Part shown: one piece after another, positions 15,140 through 24,501 of the stretch | How the letters are laid out: every line of letters starts with the position of its first letter | Position numbering within the stretch: the stretch's first letter is position 1 | Assembly (NCBI GenBank): GCA_016928995.1 | Contig: JAFGJS010000019.1 | Span: 1-24,501, forward strand | Length of the DNA stretch: 24,501 nucleotides | Reading direction: 5' to 3' | Source of the DNA: Candidatus Sumerlaeota bacterium | GTDB taxonomy: Bacteria; Sumerlaeota; Sumerlaeia; JAFGJS01 | Position numbers and translations under genes: made by a program | The notes under the pieces: model-generated | The model's database searches: none | What the model was told of the DNA's origin: nothing | The model's input: the letters and a program-made list of their open reading frames with translations, nothing else

Positions 15140-17362
15140 ATGGGCGTTGATGCATGGCATCGTTGGCTGCAATCTTGCGCGCTGTTCGTCATATGCGCGG
15201 GGCTTTGCATGTGCACGAACGATCCGTATCGCAAGGGGGAGACGCAGGAGCCGACTGTGTTCAAGGTGTTGGGCACGCCGACGACGCGTCTCGATCCTAC
15301 CCAGGCCTATTACTCGCATGAAGGGGCGATCATCGACCAAATTTACGAGCCGCCCTTCACCTATCACTACCTCAAACGTCCTTATGAATTGATTCCGCAG
15401 ACAGCCGAGGAAATCCCGCAGCCGGTTTATTTCGATAACGACGGAAATCGCATCGAGGAAGAAGATCCGCCGGCCGATCAAGTGGCGCGCGTGGAATACA
15501 CCATCCGTCTGCGCAAAGACATCCGCTATCAGGATCATCCATGCTTCGCCAAGGATGACGCCGGCAATCCGCTTTATCGCAACCTCGAACTGAAAGCGAT
15601 CAAGGCCTACGAATCGCCGAACGACTTTCCGGTCAAAGGCTCACGCAATGTGACGGCGCATGATTACTCGTTGCAGATCCGGCGCATCGCCGATCCGCGC
15701 AACACATGCCCGATCTACAGCACCATGGCGCGGTATATTCTCGGCATGGAGGAGCTCAATCAGCAAATCACCAACGTGCTTGAAGTGGAACGCTCCCGCC
15801 GCAAGGAGGAGCAAGGTTCGGCCTATAACCAGCTGCAGGATGAAAAGGACAATCCCATTCAAATCGACCTGATGGCGCTGGAGTTTCCCGGCTGTGTTGT
15901 GCTGGATGATTATACCTATAAAATCGTGTTGAGCAGAAAATATCCGCAGATCCTCTACTGGATGTGCATGCATTTTTTCGGACCGGCGCCGCAGGAAGTT
16001 TTGGATTTTTACAATCAGTCCGCGATGATCGAGCGGCAATTCAACCTGATGCGCTGGCCCATCGGCAGCGGTCCGTACTATATGGACTACTACAAACCCA
16101 ACGAGAAAATCATCCTTTCGGCCAATCCGAATTTTCACGAATCTTATTATCCTGATGAAAAAGACGAAGACGACGATCCGATTTTGCTTAAAGACGCAGG
16201 AAAGCGCCTGCCGTTCATCACCAAGCAGGTCTGGATTCTGGAGAAAGAAGGCATGCCTGCCTGGAATAAATTCCTGCAGGGCTATTACGATTCCTCGGGC
16301 ATCGATAGCGAAGTTTTCGACAAGGTTGTCGTGATGAGCGACAGCAACGATCCCAATCTTTCCGAGGAAATGCAGCAGCAAGGCATTCGCCTGATCACAT
16401 CGATCAACACAGCATTTTATTATATGAAATTCAACATGCTGGACGACGTGGTGGGCGGATTGGATGAAAAACACTGCAAACTGCGTCAGGCGTTAAGCAT
16501 CGCTTACGACGCCAATGAATACCTGGAGATTTTCTACAACGGTCGCGGCGTCTCGGCGCAAGGGCCTTTGCCGCCTGGCATCTTTGGTTATCGTAAAGGC
16601 GAAGAGGGGACCAATCCATACACCAGCGTTTGGAATTCGATCACGGAAAAGCATGAACGAAAGCCGTTGGCCGAAGCGAGGAAGTTGCTGGAGGAGGCTG
16701 GATATCCCGGCGGCATTGATACCCAAACCGGCAAGCAACTCACCCTGTATTGGGACACTGCATCCGCCGGCGACACGGGATTCCGCGCCATAGTGGATTG
16801 GACGCGTGATCGCTTCGCGCAACTCGGCGTCAATCTGGTGCAGCGCGATATGGATCTCAGCCAATTCCGGAAGAAACAGGACGAGGGCACATGGCAACTC
16901 GGCGCCAGCGGATGGCTGGCCGATTATCCCGACCCGGAAAACTTCCTATTTCTGTTCTACGGTCCCAATGGCAAGGTCAAGCATGACGGCTCAAACGCAG
17001 CGAATTATGAGAATCCAGAATTCGACGAATTGTTTGTTAAAATGGAAAGCATGCAAAACGGGCCGGAGCGGCAGGCGATCATTGATCAGCTCATGCGGAT
17101 CGTTCAGCATGACGCCCCTGCGATCTGGCAAATTTATCCCATCGGTTATGGGCTTTACCACGAATGGCAAACGAACAACAAACCGCATCACATGTCGTAT
17201 AACACGATCATGTGCCATCGGATTGATCCGGAACTGCGCTATCAGCGCCAGCAGGAATGGAACAAACCGAACTATATGCCGTTGTTGATTCTGCTGGCTG
17301 TCATCGTCATCGGCACGATTCCGGCGACCGTGCTGATCTATCGCCGGGAGAGGGGGCTCTAG
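15140..17362 (+). CDS. oppA: Oversized peptide-type ABC substrate-binding protein (SBP family 5)
   Basis: A 740-residue extracytoplasmic binding protein of the OppA/DppA family, delivering peptides (or similar solutes) to the downstream permeases. The ATG at 15140 follows AAGGGA by 6 bases and gives a hydrophobic leader (CALFVICAGLCMC) resembling an imperfect lipoprotein signal with Cys near 25. A longer upstream frame from 14939 looks non-coding. Recognisable SBP_bac_5 features: TRLDPTQAYYSHEGAIIDQIYEP near residue 50, GSGPYYMDYYKPNEKIIL near 310, LRQALSIAYD near 450, DYPDPENFLFLFYGPN near 595. It is about 200 residues longer than the usual ~540, with acidic inserts such as DEKDEDDD. It also ends in a hydrophobic helix (714-733, PLLILLAVIVIGTIPATVLI) capped by YRRERGL, suggesting a C-terminal membrane anchor. 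Three bases separate it from oppB. Confidence 0.88.
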   Translation: MGVDAWHRWLQSCALFVICAGLCMCTNDPYRKGETQEPTVFKVLGTPTTRLDPTQAYYSHEGAIIDQIYEPPFTYHYLKRPYELIPQTAEEIPQPVYFDNDGNRIEEEDPPADQVARVEYTIRLRKDIRYQDHPCFAKDDAGNPLYRNLELKAIKAYESPNDFPVKGSRNVTAHDYSLQIRRIADPRNTCPIYSTMARYILGMEELNQQITNVLEVERSRRKEEQGSAYNQLQDEKDNPIQIDLMALEFPGCVVLDDYTYKIVLSRKYPQILYWMCMHFFGPAPQEVLDFYNQSAMIERQFNLMRWPIGSGPYYMDYYKPNEKIILSANPNFHESYYPDEKDEDDDPILLKDAGKRLPFITKQVWILEKEGMPAWNKFLQGYYDSSGIDSEVFDKVVVMSDSNDPNLSEEMQQQGIRLITSINTAFYYMKFNMLDDVVGGLDEKHCKLRQALSIAYDANEYLEIFYNGRGVSAQGPLPPGIFGYRKGEEGTNPYTSVWNSITEKHERKPLAEARKLLEEAGYPGGIDTQTGKQLTLYWDTASAGDTGFRAIVDWTRDRFAQLGVNLVQRDMDLSQFRKKQDEGTWQLGASGWLADYPDPENFLFLFYGPNGKVKHDGSNAANYENPEFDELFVKMESMQNGPERQAIIDQLMRIVQHDAPAIWQIYPIGYGLYHEWQTNNKPHHMSYNTIMCHRIDPELRYQRQQEWNKPNYMPLLILLAVIVIGTIPATVLIYRRERGL

Positions 17363-17365
17363 GCT

Positions 17366-18349
17366 ATGATTGCGTATATTATCCGCCGTGTGGCCTACGC
17401 CGTCCCAATCCTGCTTGGCGTGAACCTGCTGTTGTTCCTGCTGTTCTTCTGGGTCAATTCTCCCGATGATCTGGCGAAGACCGCGCTGGGAGAAAAATTC
17501 TCCAATAAAGAACAGATCGAAATATGGAAACAGGAACACGGGTATAATCTGCCGTTGTTCTTCAATGCCCGTGAAGGCAGCCTGAAGCTGATGCTGACGC
17601 AGACGATTTTCTGGCAGAAAAGCATGCCGTTGTTCTGGTTCAATTTTGGCAAATCCGACATGGACGACAGCAGCATCACCGGAGAAATCTGGAAGCGCAT
17701 CCCGCCTTCGCTGTGCATCACGGCGCCCACGTTCTTTTTCAGCCTGGCGTTCACCATCTTCGCCGCGATGATCGTCGCTTTTTATCGCGGCACCTATGTG
17801 GACCTTTGGGCGCTGCTGCTGTGCGTGTTGATGATGTCTATCTCACAGCTTTTCTACATCATCGGCGGCCAGTTCGTGATTGCAAAATGGATGATGCTCA
17901 CCCCGGTCTCCGGCTGGGATACCGGAATCTATTCCATCAAGTTTTTAATCCTGCCAATCATCGTCGGATTGATCAGCGCCATCGGCGGCGGCATCCGTTA
18001 CAACCGCACGATCTTTCTGGAAGAAATCGGCAAGGACTACGTGCGCACGGCGCGCGCGAAAGGGCTGGGCGAAGGGACCGTGCTGTACAAACATGCGCTG
18101 AAGAACGCCATGCTGCCGATTTTGACCAGCGTGGTCGTATCGATCCCGTTCCTGATTATGGGATCGCTGCTCATCGAAAATTTTTTCGGCATACCCGGCC
18201 TGGGCAGTTACACCATCGACGCGATCACCAAGCAGGATTTCAGCGTCATCCGCGCGATGGTCTTTCTGGGATCGGTGCTGTATGTTTCCGGCCTGATCAT
18301 GGTGGACATCAGTTACACCCTGGTCGATCCGCGCATCCGGTTTGAGTGA
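17366..18349 (+). CDS. oppB: Peptide ABC transporter permease, OppB/DppB type
   Basis: A 327-residue inner-membrane permease with the family N-terminus (MIAYIIRRVAYAVPILLGVN). It has about six helices and the cytoplasmic EAA-type loop contacting the ATPase (GKDYVRTARAKGLGEG...NAMLPILTS, about 218-248), then IENFFGIPGLG and the closing DPRIRFE typical of OppB. The ATG at 17366 follows AGAGGGGG. It lies three bases after oppA, implying one mRNA. Residues 40-110 form a larger periplasmic region than usual (EQIEIWKQEHGYNLP, then SMPLFWFNFGKSDMDD). It should pair with the OppC permease, from which it is now separated by about 1 kb of inserted DNA. Confidence 0.93.
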   Translation: MIAYIIRRVAYAVPILLGVNLLLFLLFFWVNSPDDLAKTALGEKFSNKEQIEIWKQEHGYNLPLFFNAREGSLKLMLTQTIFWQKSMPLFWFNFGKSDMDDSSITGEIWKRIPPSLCITAPTFFFSLAFTIFAAMIVAFYRGTYVDLWALLLCVLMMSISQLFYIIGGQFVIAKWMMLTPVSGWDTGIYSIKFLILPIIVGLISAIGGGIRYNRTIFLEEIGKDYVRTARAKGLGEGTVLYKHALKNAMLPILTSVVVSIPFLIMGSLLIENFFGIPGLGSYTIDAITKQDFSVIRAMVFLGSVLYVSGLIMVDISYTLVDPRIRFE

Positions 18350-18474: not shown

Positions 18475-18574
18475 GGATACGAAGAACGCGAAGGATATGC
18501 GAAAACAGAACATCGAAGGATATACGAAGACAGAACGCCGAAGGATATAAGAAGACAGGACACCGAAGGATGCA
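18475..18574. repeat. 25-bp degenerate tandem repeat left of the IS200-like element
   Basis: Three consecutive 25-bp units start with GAAGGATAT or close variants (18490-18514, 18515-18539, 18540-18564), preceded by a partial unit (from about 18475) and followed by a partial unit GAAGGATG (18565-18572). Units share the pattern GAAGGATAT..GAA.ACAG.AC..C. The unit length is not a multiple of three, so this is not coding. The array ends 9-16 bases before the element's left end. Confidence 0.7.
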
Positions 18575-18580
18575 ATTATA

Positions 18581-18677
18581 TTATCCCAAAGGGATATCAT
18601 AACAAAGCCCAGGGTTGCGGCCTATAGCCGCAACCCTGGGATGGATGCAAAAAATATTTTTCCCTGAAAGGGAAAAA
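18581..18677. repeat. Left end of the IS200-like element: three nested hairpins
   Basis: The outermost palindrome is TATCCCAAAGGGATA (18583-18597). Next, a perfect 14-bp stem CCCAGGGTTGCGGC / GCCGCAACCCTGGG (18608-18621 / 18627-18640) has a CTATA loop. Third, TTTTTCCCT / AGGGAAAAA (18657-18665 / 18669-18677) has a GAA loop. The third lies just before the transposase ribosome site. Confidence 0.75.
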
Positions 18678-18697
18678 TAACAAGAGGCAACCATTCA

Positions 18698-19153
18698 ATG
18701 CCGCAATCACTTGTTCAAAATTACCAACATATTGTTTTTTCCACCAAAAATCGAGCGGCATTTTTATCCGATTCCGGAATCCGTCAGGAAATGCATGCAT
18801 ATTTAGGCGGCGCATGCCGCGATTCCGATTCACCGTCTTTGGCTGTTGGAGGCGTTGCGGATCACGTGCATATTCTCTGCCGGTTGTCCAAGCATCTTGC
18901 CATCGTCAATTTTATCCGGGACATCAAACGGGAATCATCGAAATGGATTAAAACCAAGGATTCAACTTATCAAGCATTTCAATGGCAAAATGGGTATGGC
19001 GCTTTCTCGGTCAGCCCTTCACATGTTCCGGATTTAATTCGTTATATTGGAGAACAAGAGGCGCATCATCATCGCGAGTCTTTCCAAGATGAGTTTAGAA
19101 GATTATTGAAAAAGTATGGATTGGAATGGGATGAACGGTATGTATGGGATTGA
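18698..19153 (+). CDS. tnpA: IS200-like / REP-associated HUH-tyrosine transposase (Y1 family)
   Basis: A 151-residue single-domain transposase that should nick and rejoin single-stranded DNA at the hairpin ends of its element. The HUH motif is visible in VADHVHIL (H56 and H58). RYIGEQ near the C-terminal helix supplies the probable nucleophile Tyr116 with Gln120 four residues later, the Y-to-Q spacing of IS200-type TnpA. The N-terminus NYQHIVFSTKNR and WQNGYGAFSVS (96-106) are also typical. AAGAGG (18682-18687) lies 10 bases before the ATG at 18698. The length is normal and nothing looks broken, so the protein may be active. Whether it acts on its own element or on dispersed non-autonomous copies cannot be told from this window. 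Confidence 0.92.
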   Translation: MPQSLVQNYQHIVFSTKNRAAFLSDSGIRQEMHAYLGGACRDSDSPSLAVGGVADHVHILCRLSKHLAIVNFIRDIKRESSKWIKTKDSTYQAFQWQNGYGAFSVSPSHVPDLIRYIGEQEAHHHRESFQDEFRRLLKKYGLEWDERYVWD

Positions 19154-19168
19154 CTTACACTTTCGATT

Positions 19169-19275
19169 GAACCCTTTCAGGGTTCGTGTTTGCGCGATTC
19201 GACCCAGGGTTGGGGGATTTCACTTTCGTTCAATCCTCCAACCCTGGGCTTTGGTATCATATCCCTTCAGGATAA
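19169..19275. repeat. Right end of the IS200-like element
   Basis: GAACCCT / AGGGTTC (19169-19175 / 19179-19185) form a 7-bp stem with a TTC loop. Next, CCCAGGGTT(GGGGGATT) at 19203-19219 pairs with 19232-19248 at 16 of 17 positions across a 12-nt loop. Last, TATCCC-TTCA-GGATA (19260-19274) mirrors the outer palindrome of the left end. Order and content are thus a mirror image of the left end. Confidence 0.75.
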
Positions 19276-19365
19276 CAAACTGATGCACAACAATTCAGTG
19301 AGGAATCGGGATAAAAGATTGATGCGCTGCAATCCCACGAGAAATCGGGACAACAGATTGATGCG
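19271..19365 (+). repeat. 39-bp tandem repeat carrying in-frame start codons
   Basis: Unit 1 (19271-19309) and unit 2 (19310-19348) agree at 28 of 39 positions; a third partial copy runs from 19349 to about 19365. Each contains GATAACA/AAAAG..TGATGC, so ATG codons fall in the same frame at 19283, 19322 and 19361. The length is a multiple of three, and the frame reads DNKLMHNNSVRNR, DKRLMRCNPTRNR, DNRLMR. It begins inside the right end of the IS200-like element and ends at the oppC start. Confidence 0.6.
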
Positions 19366-20986
19366 ACATGCATTGCTTGGGTCGTTATCTCTGATCCTGC
19401 CGTTGCTCATCACGGGATGTCTAAGCTCTGGTGAAAATGCTGAGACAGATCATCCCACGGAAGCACAGATCGCCCGATGTGTTTCCGAAATGAAAATCAA
19501 TCCATCATTGGAATTGACGCCGCTCGGATACAAAGCCCAAGGCTCAATTTTCACCAATCAAATTCTATTTAAATTTCAGACACAACCTGCCGATCTTACT
19601 GAACTTTTTGATGCTGAAGCGATTCACGAATCTGATTTCAAAGAAGGTGTTGAATTTCATCATGATATGCATCCGGCGCTATGGTGGGATGCAGATGGCA
19701 AAGCACTGTCTGGATGTAAAATCAAGTTTGCTGACAACAACATGATGCAGATCGGCATGCAAACACTCAGTGACCGCGAAATAGTATACATCTATTGGCA
19801 TGAAGAGCGAACGTTGCGCGATGCATTCGATACTTTCAAGTCGTGGTGGGCCGGCGCGTTGTGGGGCAATTGGTATTTCCACGATGTGCTCGTGGCGATC
19901 TTTTTGCTCATCATGGCTGTCATCATTTACAAAATGCTGCAACGCGAATACTGGCGCGTGGCTTTCCGCGAAGTTTTTCGCCGTCCCATCGTCGTGGTCT
20001 GCTTTGTCATTCTCTGCGCCTACACATTGATCGCGCTGCTCGACAGCGTGGGCTATCATCCGCCGTTGCGCGATGAAAACGACAAAATCGTGCGTAACGA
20101 AGCCGGTGAAGCGATCATCGATCACTATGGGCTGTCGTTGCTGGACGTGATCCTCAAACCTCTGCGCAAACATAAAGAGCGAACGTACAGCGCTCCTTTC
20201 GCCGATGCGGAATTCACCAAATCGCCGGAGATCGTCACGAAGCCCGGACCGGATGGCGCGGTGATTTCGAAAGTCGAGCGCATCAATAAACCGCTAAAGC
20301 ACAGACATTGGTTCGGCACGGATAAAACCGGCCGCGACGTGCTGTACCTGGCGTTGAAAGGCGTCCGCACTGGCATGATCATCGGCGCCTTCACCACGGC
20401 GTTGATCGCGCCGTTCGCGATGTTTTTCGGCATCGTGGCAGGCTATTACGGACGTTGGATCGACGACCTCATTCAGTACTTCTATTCCGTGCTTGCTTCG
20501 ATCCCATCAGTGCTGCTCGTCGTGGCGTTCATGATCGTCTTTGGCCGTGGATTGCCGCAGCTATGCATCGTCATGGGTATCACCTCCTGGACCGGTCTGT
20601 GCCGCGTGTTGCGCGGCGAGACGTTGAAGCTGCGCGAAATGGAATACATCCAGGCCTGCCAGGCGATGGGCGTGCCGCGATGGAAGATCATGCTCAAGCA
20701 CATCGCGCCGAACGTGATGCACATTGTGCTGATCACGTGCGTGTTGAATTTTTCCGGCGCCGTGCTGGCCGAGGCGGTCCTTTCGTACATCGGCATCGGC
20801 GTGGGTCCGGACACGATCTCCTGGGGCGTGATGATCAACGACGCCCGTTCAGAACTGGCGCGCGATCCAGTGATCTGGTGGAAGCTCGGCGCGGCTTTCA
20901 TCTTCATGCTGGGCCTGGTGCTGCCGGCGAATTTGTTTGGCGACGCGTTGCGCGACGCGCTCGACCCACGGCTGAGGACGCAATGA
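19361..20986 (+). CDS. oppC: OppC-type permease with an N-terminal lipoprotein domain fused on
   Basis: Counting from the ATG at 19361 the protein has 541 residues, against about 300 for ordinary OppC. Residues 1-20 are a lipoprotein signal (LLGSLSLILPLLITGC, Cys20). Residues ~25-150 form a soluble domain (ILFKFQTQPADLTELFD, PALWWDADGK, EIVYIYWHEE) like small uncharacterised bacterial lipoproteins. An extra helix (~176-190, VLVAIFLLIMAVIIY) and a basic loop (REYWRVAFREVFRRP) lead into normal OppC: first helix ~210-227, HWFGTD (316-321), EAA loop EYIQACQAMGVPRWKIM (428-444), LDPRLRTQ end. A lipidated domain outside, helix inward, basic loop inside fits OppC topology. ATGs at 19283 and 19322 and a TTG at 19190 are in-frame alternatives, but only 19361 starts a clean signal peptide; its Shine-Dalgarno site is poor. 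GC rises from about 42% to 55-60% near 19805. It overlaps the next gene by four bases (ATGA). Confidence 0.85.
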   Translation: MRHALLGSLSLILPLLITGCLSSGENAETDHPTEAQIARCVSEMKINPSLELTPLGYKAQGSIFTNQILFKFQTQPADLTELFDAEAIHESDFKEGVEFHHDMHPALWWDADGKALSGCKIKFADNNMMQIGMQTLSDREIVYIYWHEERTLRDAFDTFKSWWAGALWGNWYFHDVLVAIFLLIMAVIIYKMLQREYWRVAFREVFRRPIVVVCFVILCAYTLIALLDSVGYHPPLRDENDKIVRNEAGEAIIDHYGLSLLDVILKPLRKHKERTYSAPFADAEFTKSPEIVTKPGPDGAVISKVERINKPLKHRHWFGTDKTGRDVLYLALKGVRTGMIIGAFTTALIAPFAMFFGIVAGYYGRWIDDLIQYFYSVLASIPSVLLVVAFMIVFGRGLPQLCIVMGITSWTGLCRVLRGETLKLREMEYIQACQAMGVPRWKIMLKHIAPNVMHIVLITCVLNFSGAVLAEAVLSYIGIGVGPDTISWGVMINDARSELARDPVIWWKLGAAFIFMLGLVLPANLFGDALRDALDPRLRTQ

Positions 20987-22992
20987 GCCCGGAACCGCTG
21001 CTGCAAGTGCGAGACTTGAAAGCCTATTTCACCACGCGTAAAGGTCCTGCGCGCGCCGTGGACGGAGTTTCCTTTGACATCCATCCCGGCGAGACCTTCG
21101 CCCTTGTCGGCGAGTCGGGCTGCGGCAAGTCGGTCACGGCGCTGTCGATTCTGCAACTGCTGCCGCGTCCGGCGGGCTACATCGCCGGCGGCGAGATCCT
21201 GTTCGGCGGACGCGACATCGCCAAACTGCCGCCAGTGGAAATGCGCAAGATTCGCGGCAACGACATCTCGATGATTTTTCAGGAGCCGATGACTGCGCTC
21301 AATCCCGTTTTCACCGTCGGCCAGCAGATCAATGAAGTGTTGATATTGCATCAAAGGATGAACACTGCGCAGGCGACTCGTCGCGGCATCGAAATGCTCG
21401 ATCAGGCCGGCATTCCCTCGCCGGATGCGTGCTATAACGAGTATCCACATCAGCTTTCCGGCGGCATGCGTCAGCGCGTGATGATCGCCATGGCCCTGGC
21501 GTGCAAACCCAAACTGCTGATCGCGGACGAGCCGACCACGGCGTTGGACGTGACGATTCAGGCGCAGGTGCTTGCGCTGATCCGCGACCTGCAAAAAGAA
21601 ACCGGCACGGCGGTCCTGCTGATCACGCACGACATGGGCGTGGTGCGCGAGCAGGCGCATCGCGTCGCCGTGATGTACGCGGGCAAGCAGGTCGAGGAGG
21701 CGCCAGTGGAGCGGCTGTTCGCCGAACCCGCGCATCCATACACCGAACTGCTGATGCGTGCGCTGCCGTCACGCACGTTGCGCGGACGAAAACTCGAGAC
21801 CATTCCCGGCCTCGTGCCTCAGGCCACGCAGGAGATCGCCGGATGCCGTTTCCACACCCGTTGCCCGGTGAAATTGGAGCATTGCCCGCATCAACCGCCG
21901 AAGACGGAACAAATCACATCCAGCCATCTCGTGGCATGTCATTTATTTACCGCCGCCGAACTTCAAGCGCGCGCCCAGATTGGAGCGCAATTAGCGGATG
22001 CTCCGGCGAGTTCCATCAAGGAAGAAGCGGCGCTGGAGGCGCGCGAATTGCAAACCTGGTTTCCCATCCGCAAGGGGATTTTGAAGCGGACCGTGGGGCA
22101 TGTGCGCGCTGTGGACGGTGTGACGATCACGATCCGCAAAGGCGAAACGCTGGCGCTAGTCGGCGAGTCCGGCTGCGGCAAAACCACCGTGGGCAAGACG
22201 ATCATCCGTCTGCTGGAGCCGACTGGCGGCTCCGTGTTGTATCAGGGGACGGACCTTTCCAGTTTGTCGCGCGCGGAAATGAAACCGTACCGCAAGCGCA
22301 TTCAATTTGTCTTTCAGGATCCCTTTTCCAGCCTGAATCCGCGGCGCATGATCAGCGAAACGCTGGTCGAGGCGATGGAGACGCACGGCATCGGCGCGAA
22401 TCATAAGGAGCGGCTGGACAAGGCTGGATTTTACCTGGAGCGTGTGGGGCTGGACGCCGATATGATGCATCGCTATCCGCATGAATTTTCCGGCGGACAA
22501 CGCCAGCGCGTCGTCCTGGCGCGCGCATTGGCCACGGATCCCGATCTGTTGATCTGCGACGAAGCCACTAGCGCTCTGGACGTTTCCGTCCAAGCCTCAA
22601 TCTTGAATTTGCTCAAAGACCTGCAAAGCGAATTCGGTTTGTCGTTTCTCTTCATTACGCATGACCTGAGTGTGGTGGAGTATCTCGCCGACCGTGTCGC
22701 CGTGATGTATCTTGGCCGCATCGTGGAGGAAGGCAAGACCGAGGAGATTTTCAAAGCGGCCAAGCACCCCTACACTGTGGCGCTGCTTTCCGCCGTGCCG
22801 CAGATCGCCGCGGAAGATCAGCGCAAAAAGATCATCCTCGAAGGCGACGTGCCTTCGCCCGTCAAACCCCCCAGCGGATGTCACTTCCATCCGCGCTGTC
22901 CACAGGTGCTGGCTCAATGCAAGACGGCGTACCCCGGCGTCAGCGGCTTCAGCGAAACTCACACCTGCCGCTGCTGGCTGCATGAACAGTGA
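20983..22992 (+). CDS. oppDF: Single-chain peptide ABC transporter ATPase (OppD-OppF fusion)
   Basis: A 669-residue protein with two complete ATPase halves that energises the OppBC permease. Half 1 (about 1-325): Walker A GESGCGKS (43-50), signature LSGGMRQR (158-165), Walker [10 protein letters not shown] (178-186), His216. Half 2 (about 350-669): Walker [10 protein letters not shown] (394-402), signature FSGGQRQR (502-509), Walker [10 protein letters not shown] (522-530), His560. Each half ends with the OppD/DppD-type C-terminal domain, including spaced cysteines (C288, C294, C301, C319; C633, C639, C646, C662/C664) in the pattern proposed to hold an Fe-S cluster. OppD and OppF are usually separate genes; fused versions such as GsiA/YejF are known. 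The ATG at 20983 overlaps the oppC stop, showing translational coupling; the frame upstream of it is only oppC in another reading. Confidence 0.93.
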
Positions 22993-23055: not shown

Positions 23056-24501
23056 TTATGCGGCCTTCCAGCGCGATGTTTGTTGTAAGGCCAAGATCGC
23101 GCGGTGTTTTTCGATGGGCCGCCGGAAAAATTCGTTCATCGCTCGCCACAAGGCGAAAATTGCGTTTGGAAGCGCCGCAAGGCGGCGTTGCGCGGCGATG
23201 GACAGGGGATGCGCGGCTTCCCGCAGCCCGCCGCCGGCCTGCAGACTCCGCGATGTGCCAATTCTAAACAACGCCCGCATGATGATCCCGAGATTGAGGC
23301 CCATCAGCAGGCCCAGCCAGCGCTTGCCGGCCTTCTCGAGCCCGCGAAGCCACATCCGCCGGCCGCCGCCCGTCTCGCAGCTGTGCGCAAAACTGCGCTC
23401 GATCCGCTCGCCGCGCTTGCGTAAAAGCGCCTTGCCGCGCGCCCCCTTCACCCGCCGCCGGTTCGCGTAATGCGCTTGCTGGAATCCCTCCGGCTTGTCC
23501 GTCCACTTGCGGCGATGCGGCTCTTGCTTTTCCGGAATGTAACTGCGAACTTGCGCGGCCTCCAGAAAGACCAAAGTTTCGTCCTTGTGATACCCGGTGT
23601 CCGCCACAACTTCCTTCAAAACGACGTGCCCGCCCTGCGTAACGACTTGCCCTTCCTTCGTAACTACGGACCCGTCTCCGATCAGCAGTTGCGCCGCGGC
23701 CGCTTCAAGAATCCGTTTCTTGATCGTTTCGCTGTCCGACGATTCGCCGCCGTCCGCATGTTCGATCCCCGCGCTGACGATCAGCCCGCTGCCTGCGTCC
23801 GCCGCGTGCTCCGCCTTGTAGGCCAAGTGCGTGCTGCCGTCCTTCATCCTGGCGATCCGCGCGTCGCGATCCGTGGAAGACTCCCACTCGGCGTTCGAAA
23901 CCTTTTTCCCTTTGCGCTTGCGGTCGAGGCGGCGCGCGTCCTCGTCCGTGGGATTCTCGATCCCTTCCTCCTCGGCCAGACGCCTGATGTACTCGTTCCA
24001 CGTCTCGCGGCTGACCTTGCGCACGATTTTTTTCATCGCGGCGTTCGCTTCGAGCAATGTCGAGTCGACCAGCAGCGTTTTGCCTTTCAGGATTTTCTTC
24101 TCGCTGGCGATTTTCAGAATCAGCAGGAAGGCTTGCTCATGCACGTCAAACGGCAGCCGGTCGCGGATGCGCGTCAGGCTGGAGTGGTCCGGCGTCTGGC
24201 GATCGCGGGGCTTTTCCGCGTTCAGCGGGCAGCCCAGGAACTCGCGCAACGCCAGACTGTCGGCGCAGCGCCACGCGATGCCGCGCTGCGAGCCGATCCC
24301 TTCGAAGTAGCCGGTCAGCAGCATGCGGAAATAGCGCCCCGGCGGGATTGACGGCCGCCCGCCGTCCTTGTAATGCGGCTCGCACAGCGCCTCGACCTCG
24401 CGGTCGAAGTTGGCCTCGGCGAGCAGGCGGTTGAGTTTCTGGTAGAACGGGCTTCCCGTCGCTTGCGGCAATTCGTCCGCCGCGATCCACAGCTCCAACT
24501 G
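23056..24501 (-). CDS. IS1182-family DDE transposase (5' end beyond the window)
   Basis: At least 481 residues are visible. They include the N-terminal DUF772-type DNA-binding domain (GGRPSIPPGRYFRMLLTGYF, then EFLGC, then TPDHSSLTRIRDRL) and a DDE nuclease domain. Numbered from the TTG at 24498, the catalytic triad is D145 (LLVDSTLLEAN), D300 (VVADTGYHKD) and E367 (RIERSFAH). The C-terminus RAILALQQTSRWKAA ends at TAA 23058-23056. The frame is open through the edge (CAG at 24501-24499), so the true start is probably just outside. No internal stop or frameshift is seen, so the enzyme may be functional. Confidence 0.88.
   Translation of the reverse strand, partial: QLELWIAADELPQATGSPFYQKLNRLLAEANFDREVEALCEPHYKDGGRPSIPPGRYFRMLLTGYFEGIGSQRGIAWRCADSLALREFLGCPLNAEKPRDRQTPDHSSLTRIRDRLPFDVHEQAFLLILKIASEKKILKGKTLLVDSTLLEANAAMKKIVRKVSRETWNEYIRRLAEEEGIENPTDEDARRLDRKRKGKKVSNAEWESSTDRDARIARMKDGSTHLAYKAEHAADAGSGLIVSAGIEHADGGESSDSETIKKRILEAAAAQLLIGDGSVVTKEGQVVTQGGHVVLKEVVADTGYHKDETLVFLEAAQVRSYIPEKQEPHRRKWTDKPEGFQQAHYANRRRVKGARGKALLRKRGERIERSFAHSCETGGGRRMWLRGLEKAGKRWLGLLMGLNLGIIMRALFRIGTSRSLQAGGGLREAAHPLSIAAQRRLAALPNAIFALWRAMNEFFRRPIEKHRAILALQQTSRWKAA

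Follow-up and report, generated by a model that had tools for sequence, protein, structure and literature searches.

In the window, the whole 24,501-nt stretch of DNA analysed here, a single unbroken frame on the forward strand (19361-20986, 541 aa) encodes a signal peptide, a soluble domain, an extra membrane helix and a full OppC permease. We consider it probable that a lipoprotein gene was inserted between oppB and oppC and became fused in frame to oppC, giving a lipid-tethered product in which the added domain is probably a tolerated passenger. A preliminary description of this DNA had proposed that a small lipoprotein gene landed next to oppC, and that the two were joined in frame. This proposal is supported by the finding that the complete domain occurs as a free-standing protein elsewhere, and that OppC relatives lack it. 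No report of an OppC-lipoprotein fusion was found in the open-licence literature.

The signal peptide spans residues 1-19 (19361-19417, +), has a hydropathy peak of 2.0 and ends in the lipobox LITGC, with MRHALLGSLSLILPLLITG followed by the cysteine, Cys20 (codon 19418-19420). The mature domain follows at residues 20-149 (19418-19807, +) and comprises ~128 residues, in agreement with the earlier reading of a lipobox and a ~130-residue soluble domain. Searches with the soluble domain gave nothing in the curated libraries: it had no match in Pfam, NCBIfam or PDB sequences, and none among phages, plasmids and viral contigs. One clear relative was found in a search of 386 genomes, a free-standing lipoprotein of 148 aa in a distant, unrelated genome (G546, L134:1495-1941, minus strand), which is 41% identical to the window domain over 130 residues (BLASTP, E = 9e-40). 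The homologue carries its own lipobox (LSFAGC), and the lipobox position and the length are the same as in the window domain, but it is a separate gene with no peptide transporter beside it in the 9.6 kb examined. It ends in YIMWHQT followed by a stop, at the place where the window reads YIYWHEERTLRD. Since both the lipobox and the end of the homologue match the window domain, the window contains the entire lipoprotein; the homologue therefore identifies the domain as a protein and locates the end of the old gene.

The lipoprotein family is very sparse, with nothing beyond weak partial matches elsewhere in the sampled genomes. Only such matches were obtained in the window's class, and the other matches in the 386 relatives of G105 were likewise weak and partial (best E 6e-4). 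A search of the relatives of G546 returned only G546 itself, the domain was absent from seven genomes with the same operon, and the window's own genome held no lipoprotein paralogue. The single-sequence model of the domain had a pLDDT of 58.7, and in the full-length AlphaFold2 model (22 aligned sequences) the domain was below 50. Fold matches of the weak single-sequence model (best Z 6.9, BamC 6.5, DcrB 6.0) included none with E < 0.001. Naming a fold (BamC, DcrB, Flpp3, PsbP or LpqN) was rejected, as these were background-level matches to a poor model. A substrate-binding-protein fold was also rejected, because ~128 residues are too few for a two-lobe binding protein and no sequence match to binding proteins was found in Pfam or PDB sequences.

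The open frame begins just past the TGA at 19151 and ends with the stop codon 20984-20986. Between 19361 and 19810 the assembled sequence has no stop or frameshift, as had been described, and both remaining frames contain many stops. The likeliest start is the ATG at 19361. This is the third of the in-frame ATGs supplied, one per copy, by a 39-nt tandem repeat of 2.4 copies (19270-19364, +), which duplicates the start-codon region of the lipoprotein in frame and ends on the likely start codon; the choice is short of proof because the repeat offers two further in-frame ATGs, at 19283 and 19322. The low GC content of about 42% over ~19501-19800, with a step at the end of the soluble domain, was confirmed: GC was 42.0% over 19500-19799 and 53-63% in oppC. 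GC at third codon positions (GC3) was 0.41 for the domain and 0.39 for the adjoining transposase gene, compared with 0.67-0.77 across the opp genes, and the best GC3 step lay in 19718-19844, a step reached by 0 of 1000 permutations. The compositional step coincides with the stop position of the homologue and with the start of native OppC. The fusion junction is assigned to residues 148-158 (19802-19834, +) by the homologue's stop, the GC3 step and the first residues of relatives, and the predicted point of joining is just after residue 148, at about 19802-19813.

The OppC core occupies residues 197-541 (19949-20986, +) and matches Pfam BPD_transp_1 above the cut-off (E 4e-29). The first-helix domain OppC_N scored 16.5 bits over residues 197-227, below the cut-off of 23.9, as did the relative L017 at 22.9. 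Only one of the 93 columns that are invariant in the other 21 sequences differs in the window, so by its sequence the core is not decayed, and because these conserved columns are intact the transporter probably still works. OppC was well predicted in the full-length model, and the OppC model superposed on M. tuberculosis OppC (8j5t_C) with a TMt of 0.76. In front of the core, an extra N-terminal membrane helix at residues about 171-192 (19871-19936, +; helix 171-194 in the AlphaFold2 model, where this block has a pLDDT of about 84-91) is followed by a positively charged stretch, LQREYWRVAFREVFRR.

Relatives 55-67% identical to the window OppC occur in Lentisphaerae/Verrucomicrobiota genomes. 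The start could be seen in 23 distinct relatives, and not one of them has the lipoprotein domain or the same fusion. The extra helix aligned in all of them; OppC starts 1-16 residues ahead of it in 21, and an OppB-OppC fusion is present in the other two. As no relative has the lipoprotein and all have the helix, the helix is ancestral in the clade, and the fusion has been seen in the window only. The preliminary description was thus correct in noting the helix but not in treating it as part of the fusion. A tree of 22 OppC rows left the nearest kin of the window OppC unresolved. M. tuberculosis OppABCD and E. coli OppBCDF/DppBCDF share the OppC core, BPD_transp_1 and the fold (TMt 0.76-0.86), whereas the window OppC has in addition the N-terminal helix, a clade feature, and the lipoprotein domain, which is found in this genome only.

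Standard OppC has a cytoplasmic N-terminus and six helices. One added helix at the front should therefore put the N-terminus outside. Two assemblies have OppB and OppC fused in one frame: L024 (4621-6999, a spirochaete assembly) and L129, a 743-aa frame in a second, more distant genome. Both place one further helix between the last OppB helix and the extra helix. Because this added helix follows an OppB end that lies inside, the fusions suggest that the native OppC N-terminus of the clade faces outside the cytoplasm, and placing a secreted lipoprotein ahead of such an OppC would therefore leave its topology unchanged. In E. coli, leucine directly after the lipoprotein cysteine leads to outer membrane sorting. 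The residue following Cys20 is leucine, but the OppC tether should keep the lipoprotein domain in the inner membrane.

The flanking operon is otherwise conventional for the clade. Upstream are oppA (15140-17362, +; SBP_bac_5, E 2e-44; inferred ATG start at 15140), with an N-terminal signal and cysteine and a C-terminal membrane helix, and oppB (17366-18349, +; BPD_transp_1, E 7e-31). Downstream, an oppD-oppF ATPase fusion gene (20983-22992, +) with two ABC_tran domains and oligo_HPY overlaps the oppC stop at its start (ATGA). The order oppA-B-C-DF is thus retained on both sides of the insertion. Operons of Lentisphaerae, Victivallales and Verrucomicrobiota (L017-L023; OppC 57-66% identical to that of the window, oppDF fused in L018 and L019) share this gene order, the anchored OppA and the extra OppC helix, but have neither the lipoprotein nor a transposase element between oppB and oppC. 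The C-terminal OppA helix was found in the window and in seven relatives. The anchored OppA, which the preliminary description had taken for a companion peculiarity of the fusion, is therefore clade-wide and also present in relatives without the lipoprotein. An N-terminal lipoprotein-type signal together with a C-terminal helix was seen in 8 of 8 OppA proteins checked; the window lipobox is atypical, with methionine before the cysteine (LCMC).

In relatives, oppB and oppC adjoin or overlap or are separated by short gaps (147 nt in L017, 13 nt in L018). In the window, the gap is about 1.46 kb and forms a low-GC3 island containing a transposase element and the lipoprotein sequence. The element is enclosed by inverted repeats at 18581-18617 and 19239-19275 (89% complementary; element 18581-19275, +), with terminal hairpins at 18608-18640 and 19203-19248 (DNA folding z -7.1 and -6.5). 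Within it is an ORF of 151 aa (18698-19153, +) for a Y1 transposase, IS200-like or RAYT-like (Pfam Y1_Tnp, E 8e-22; NCBIfam matches below cut-off). RAYT elements have a Y1 transposase ORF between two inverted palindromic repeats, and their palindromes are abundant genomic REPs (PMC2817692). The window ORF is flanked by inverted palindromic repeats, but a DNA search of its own genome found no copies of the island palindromes outside the window; the sole outside match of the island, on contig C118, lies inside a transposase gene. Five diverged copies of the Y1 transposase (38-49% identity) are present on contigs C118, C67, C148, C25 and C130 of the genome. A 25-nt tandem repeat of 3.3 copies (18489-18571, +) is located near the left edge of the island, so that 25-nt and 39-nt tandem repeats stand on either side of the element. 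Carriage of the lipoprotein by the transposase was considered and not adopted: the inverted repeats do not enclose the domain, and the ORFs seen near the G546 homologue included no transposase. A chimeric contig was judged unlikely, because the operon continues in order on the far side of the island and two joins would be needed.

Several other explanations of the long frame were weighed against an in-frame gene fusion. That its upstream part is no gene but a frame left open by chance can be dismissed almost entirely. The domain has no Pfam, NCBIfam, PDB-sequence, phage or plasmid match, as such a frame would predict, but the full-length homologue (E 9e-40) refutes this reading, the lipobox is present in window and homologue alike, and a 660-nt frame stayed open in only 3 of 20,000 shuffles that kept dinucleotide content, putting the probability of the upstream opening at about 1e-4 to 1e-3. 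It is also possible, but quite unlikely, that two separate adjacent genes are present, with a true stop ending the lipoprotein, a one-base assembly error hiding it, and OppC starting at TTG 19814. An out-of-frame TGA at 19801 adjoins the expected lipoprotein end, beside the homologue's stop point, GAAGAG stands upstream of TTG 19814, and the fusion is known from one assembly, with no close relative among the genomes compared. However, the junction sequence, TCTATTGGCATGAAGAGCGAACGTTG, has no homopolymer that would invite indels, and an out-of-frame stop within three codons is expected by chance with a probability of 0.51, little more than a coin toss.

The same TTG, which may once have been the OppC start, raises the somewhat less remote prospect that two products are made: the full-length fusion from 19361, minor and harmless, and a normal OppC from 19814. 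GAAGAG lies within 13 nt before the codon, and a start there would give an OppC N-terminus close in length to that of the relatives, but TTG initiates weakly, and the GAAGAG site was judged by eye. Finally, the domain could be a selected part of the importer, docking OppA, binding a ligand or fixing the permease to another envelope layer. The domain has kept its full length and 41% identity to a free-standing relative, OppC stays intact, and covalently attached extracytoplasmic domains work in other importers such as OpuA (PMC11065425). Against this, the domain is found in one genome only and is unlike binding proteins, and relatives have the same operon and anchored OppA without it. None of the evidence favours the contact with OppA that the preliminary description had suggested. 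We therefore regard selection as unlikely, and the more specific proposal that the domain works as a periplasmic module of the importer, tethered by lipid and extra helix and not acting as a binding protein, as a little more doubtful still.

The preferred explanation, insertion followed by in-frame fusion, can be set out as follows. A complete lipoprotein gene would have been inserted between oppB and oppC on the low-GC3 island together with the IS200/RAYT-like element, and loss of its stop would have let it read in frame into native oppC. Translation would begin at 19361, and the signal peptide would export the domain and be cut before Cys20, which would be lipidated. The ~128-residue domain would then lie outside the membrane, tethered at two ends by the lipid and the extra helix, and the fused OppC would assemble with OppB and OppDF. 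Because native OppC is predicted to be N-out, this single-lineage fusion is most likely tolerated, and the domain most likely a passenger; at most it would serve as an accessory domain outside the cytoplasm.

In OpuA, an 11-residue linker and an anchoring helix connect the binding domains to the membrane domain (PMC11065425). In the window OppC, as in OpuA-type importers, a membrane helix links the permease covalently to a soluble extracytoplasmic domain; in the OpuA type, however, the attached domain is substrate-binding, whereas in the window it is a small, unrelated N-terminal lipoprotein and OppA is still separate. By its sequence and size, the window domain is not a binding-protein fold of the kind fused in OpuA/GlnPQ-type importers. 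Covalently attached extracytoplasmic importer domains are thus already known, and the lipoprotein-OppC fusion is so far unique to the window. The mechanism is ordinary, and the fusion is better seen as a curiosity than as a new type of system. Its interest is that an inserted island can place a ready-made secreted gene before an N-out membrane protein and so would yield a lipid-anchored permease in one step, and that OppC proteins in this clade possess a seventh helix, its N-terminus probably outside, which tolerates an upstream lipoprotein or, elsewhere, fusion to OppB.

The opp operon may be of horizontal origin, or the contig may be misbinned. Comparable OppC was seen in 1 of 38 genomes of the window's class, at 47% over the C-terminal part, and close relatives are found in Lentisphaerae. 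Directly past the operon is a transposase-like ORF (23056-24498, minus strand), of IS1182/IS5-type appearance as named by eye.
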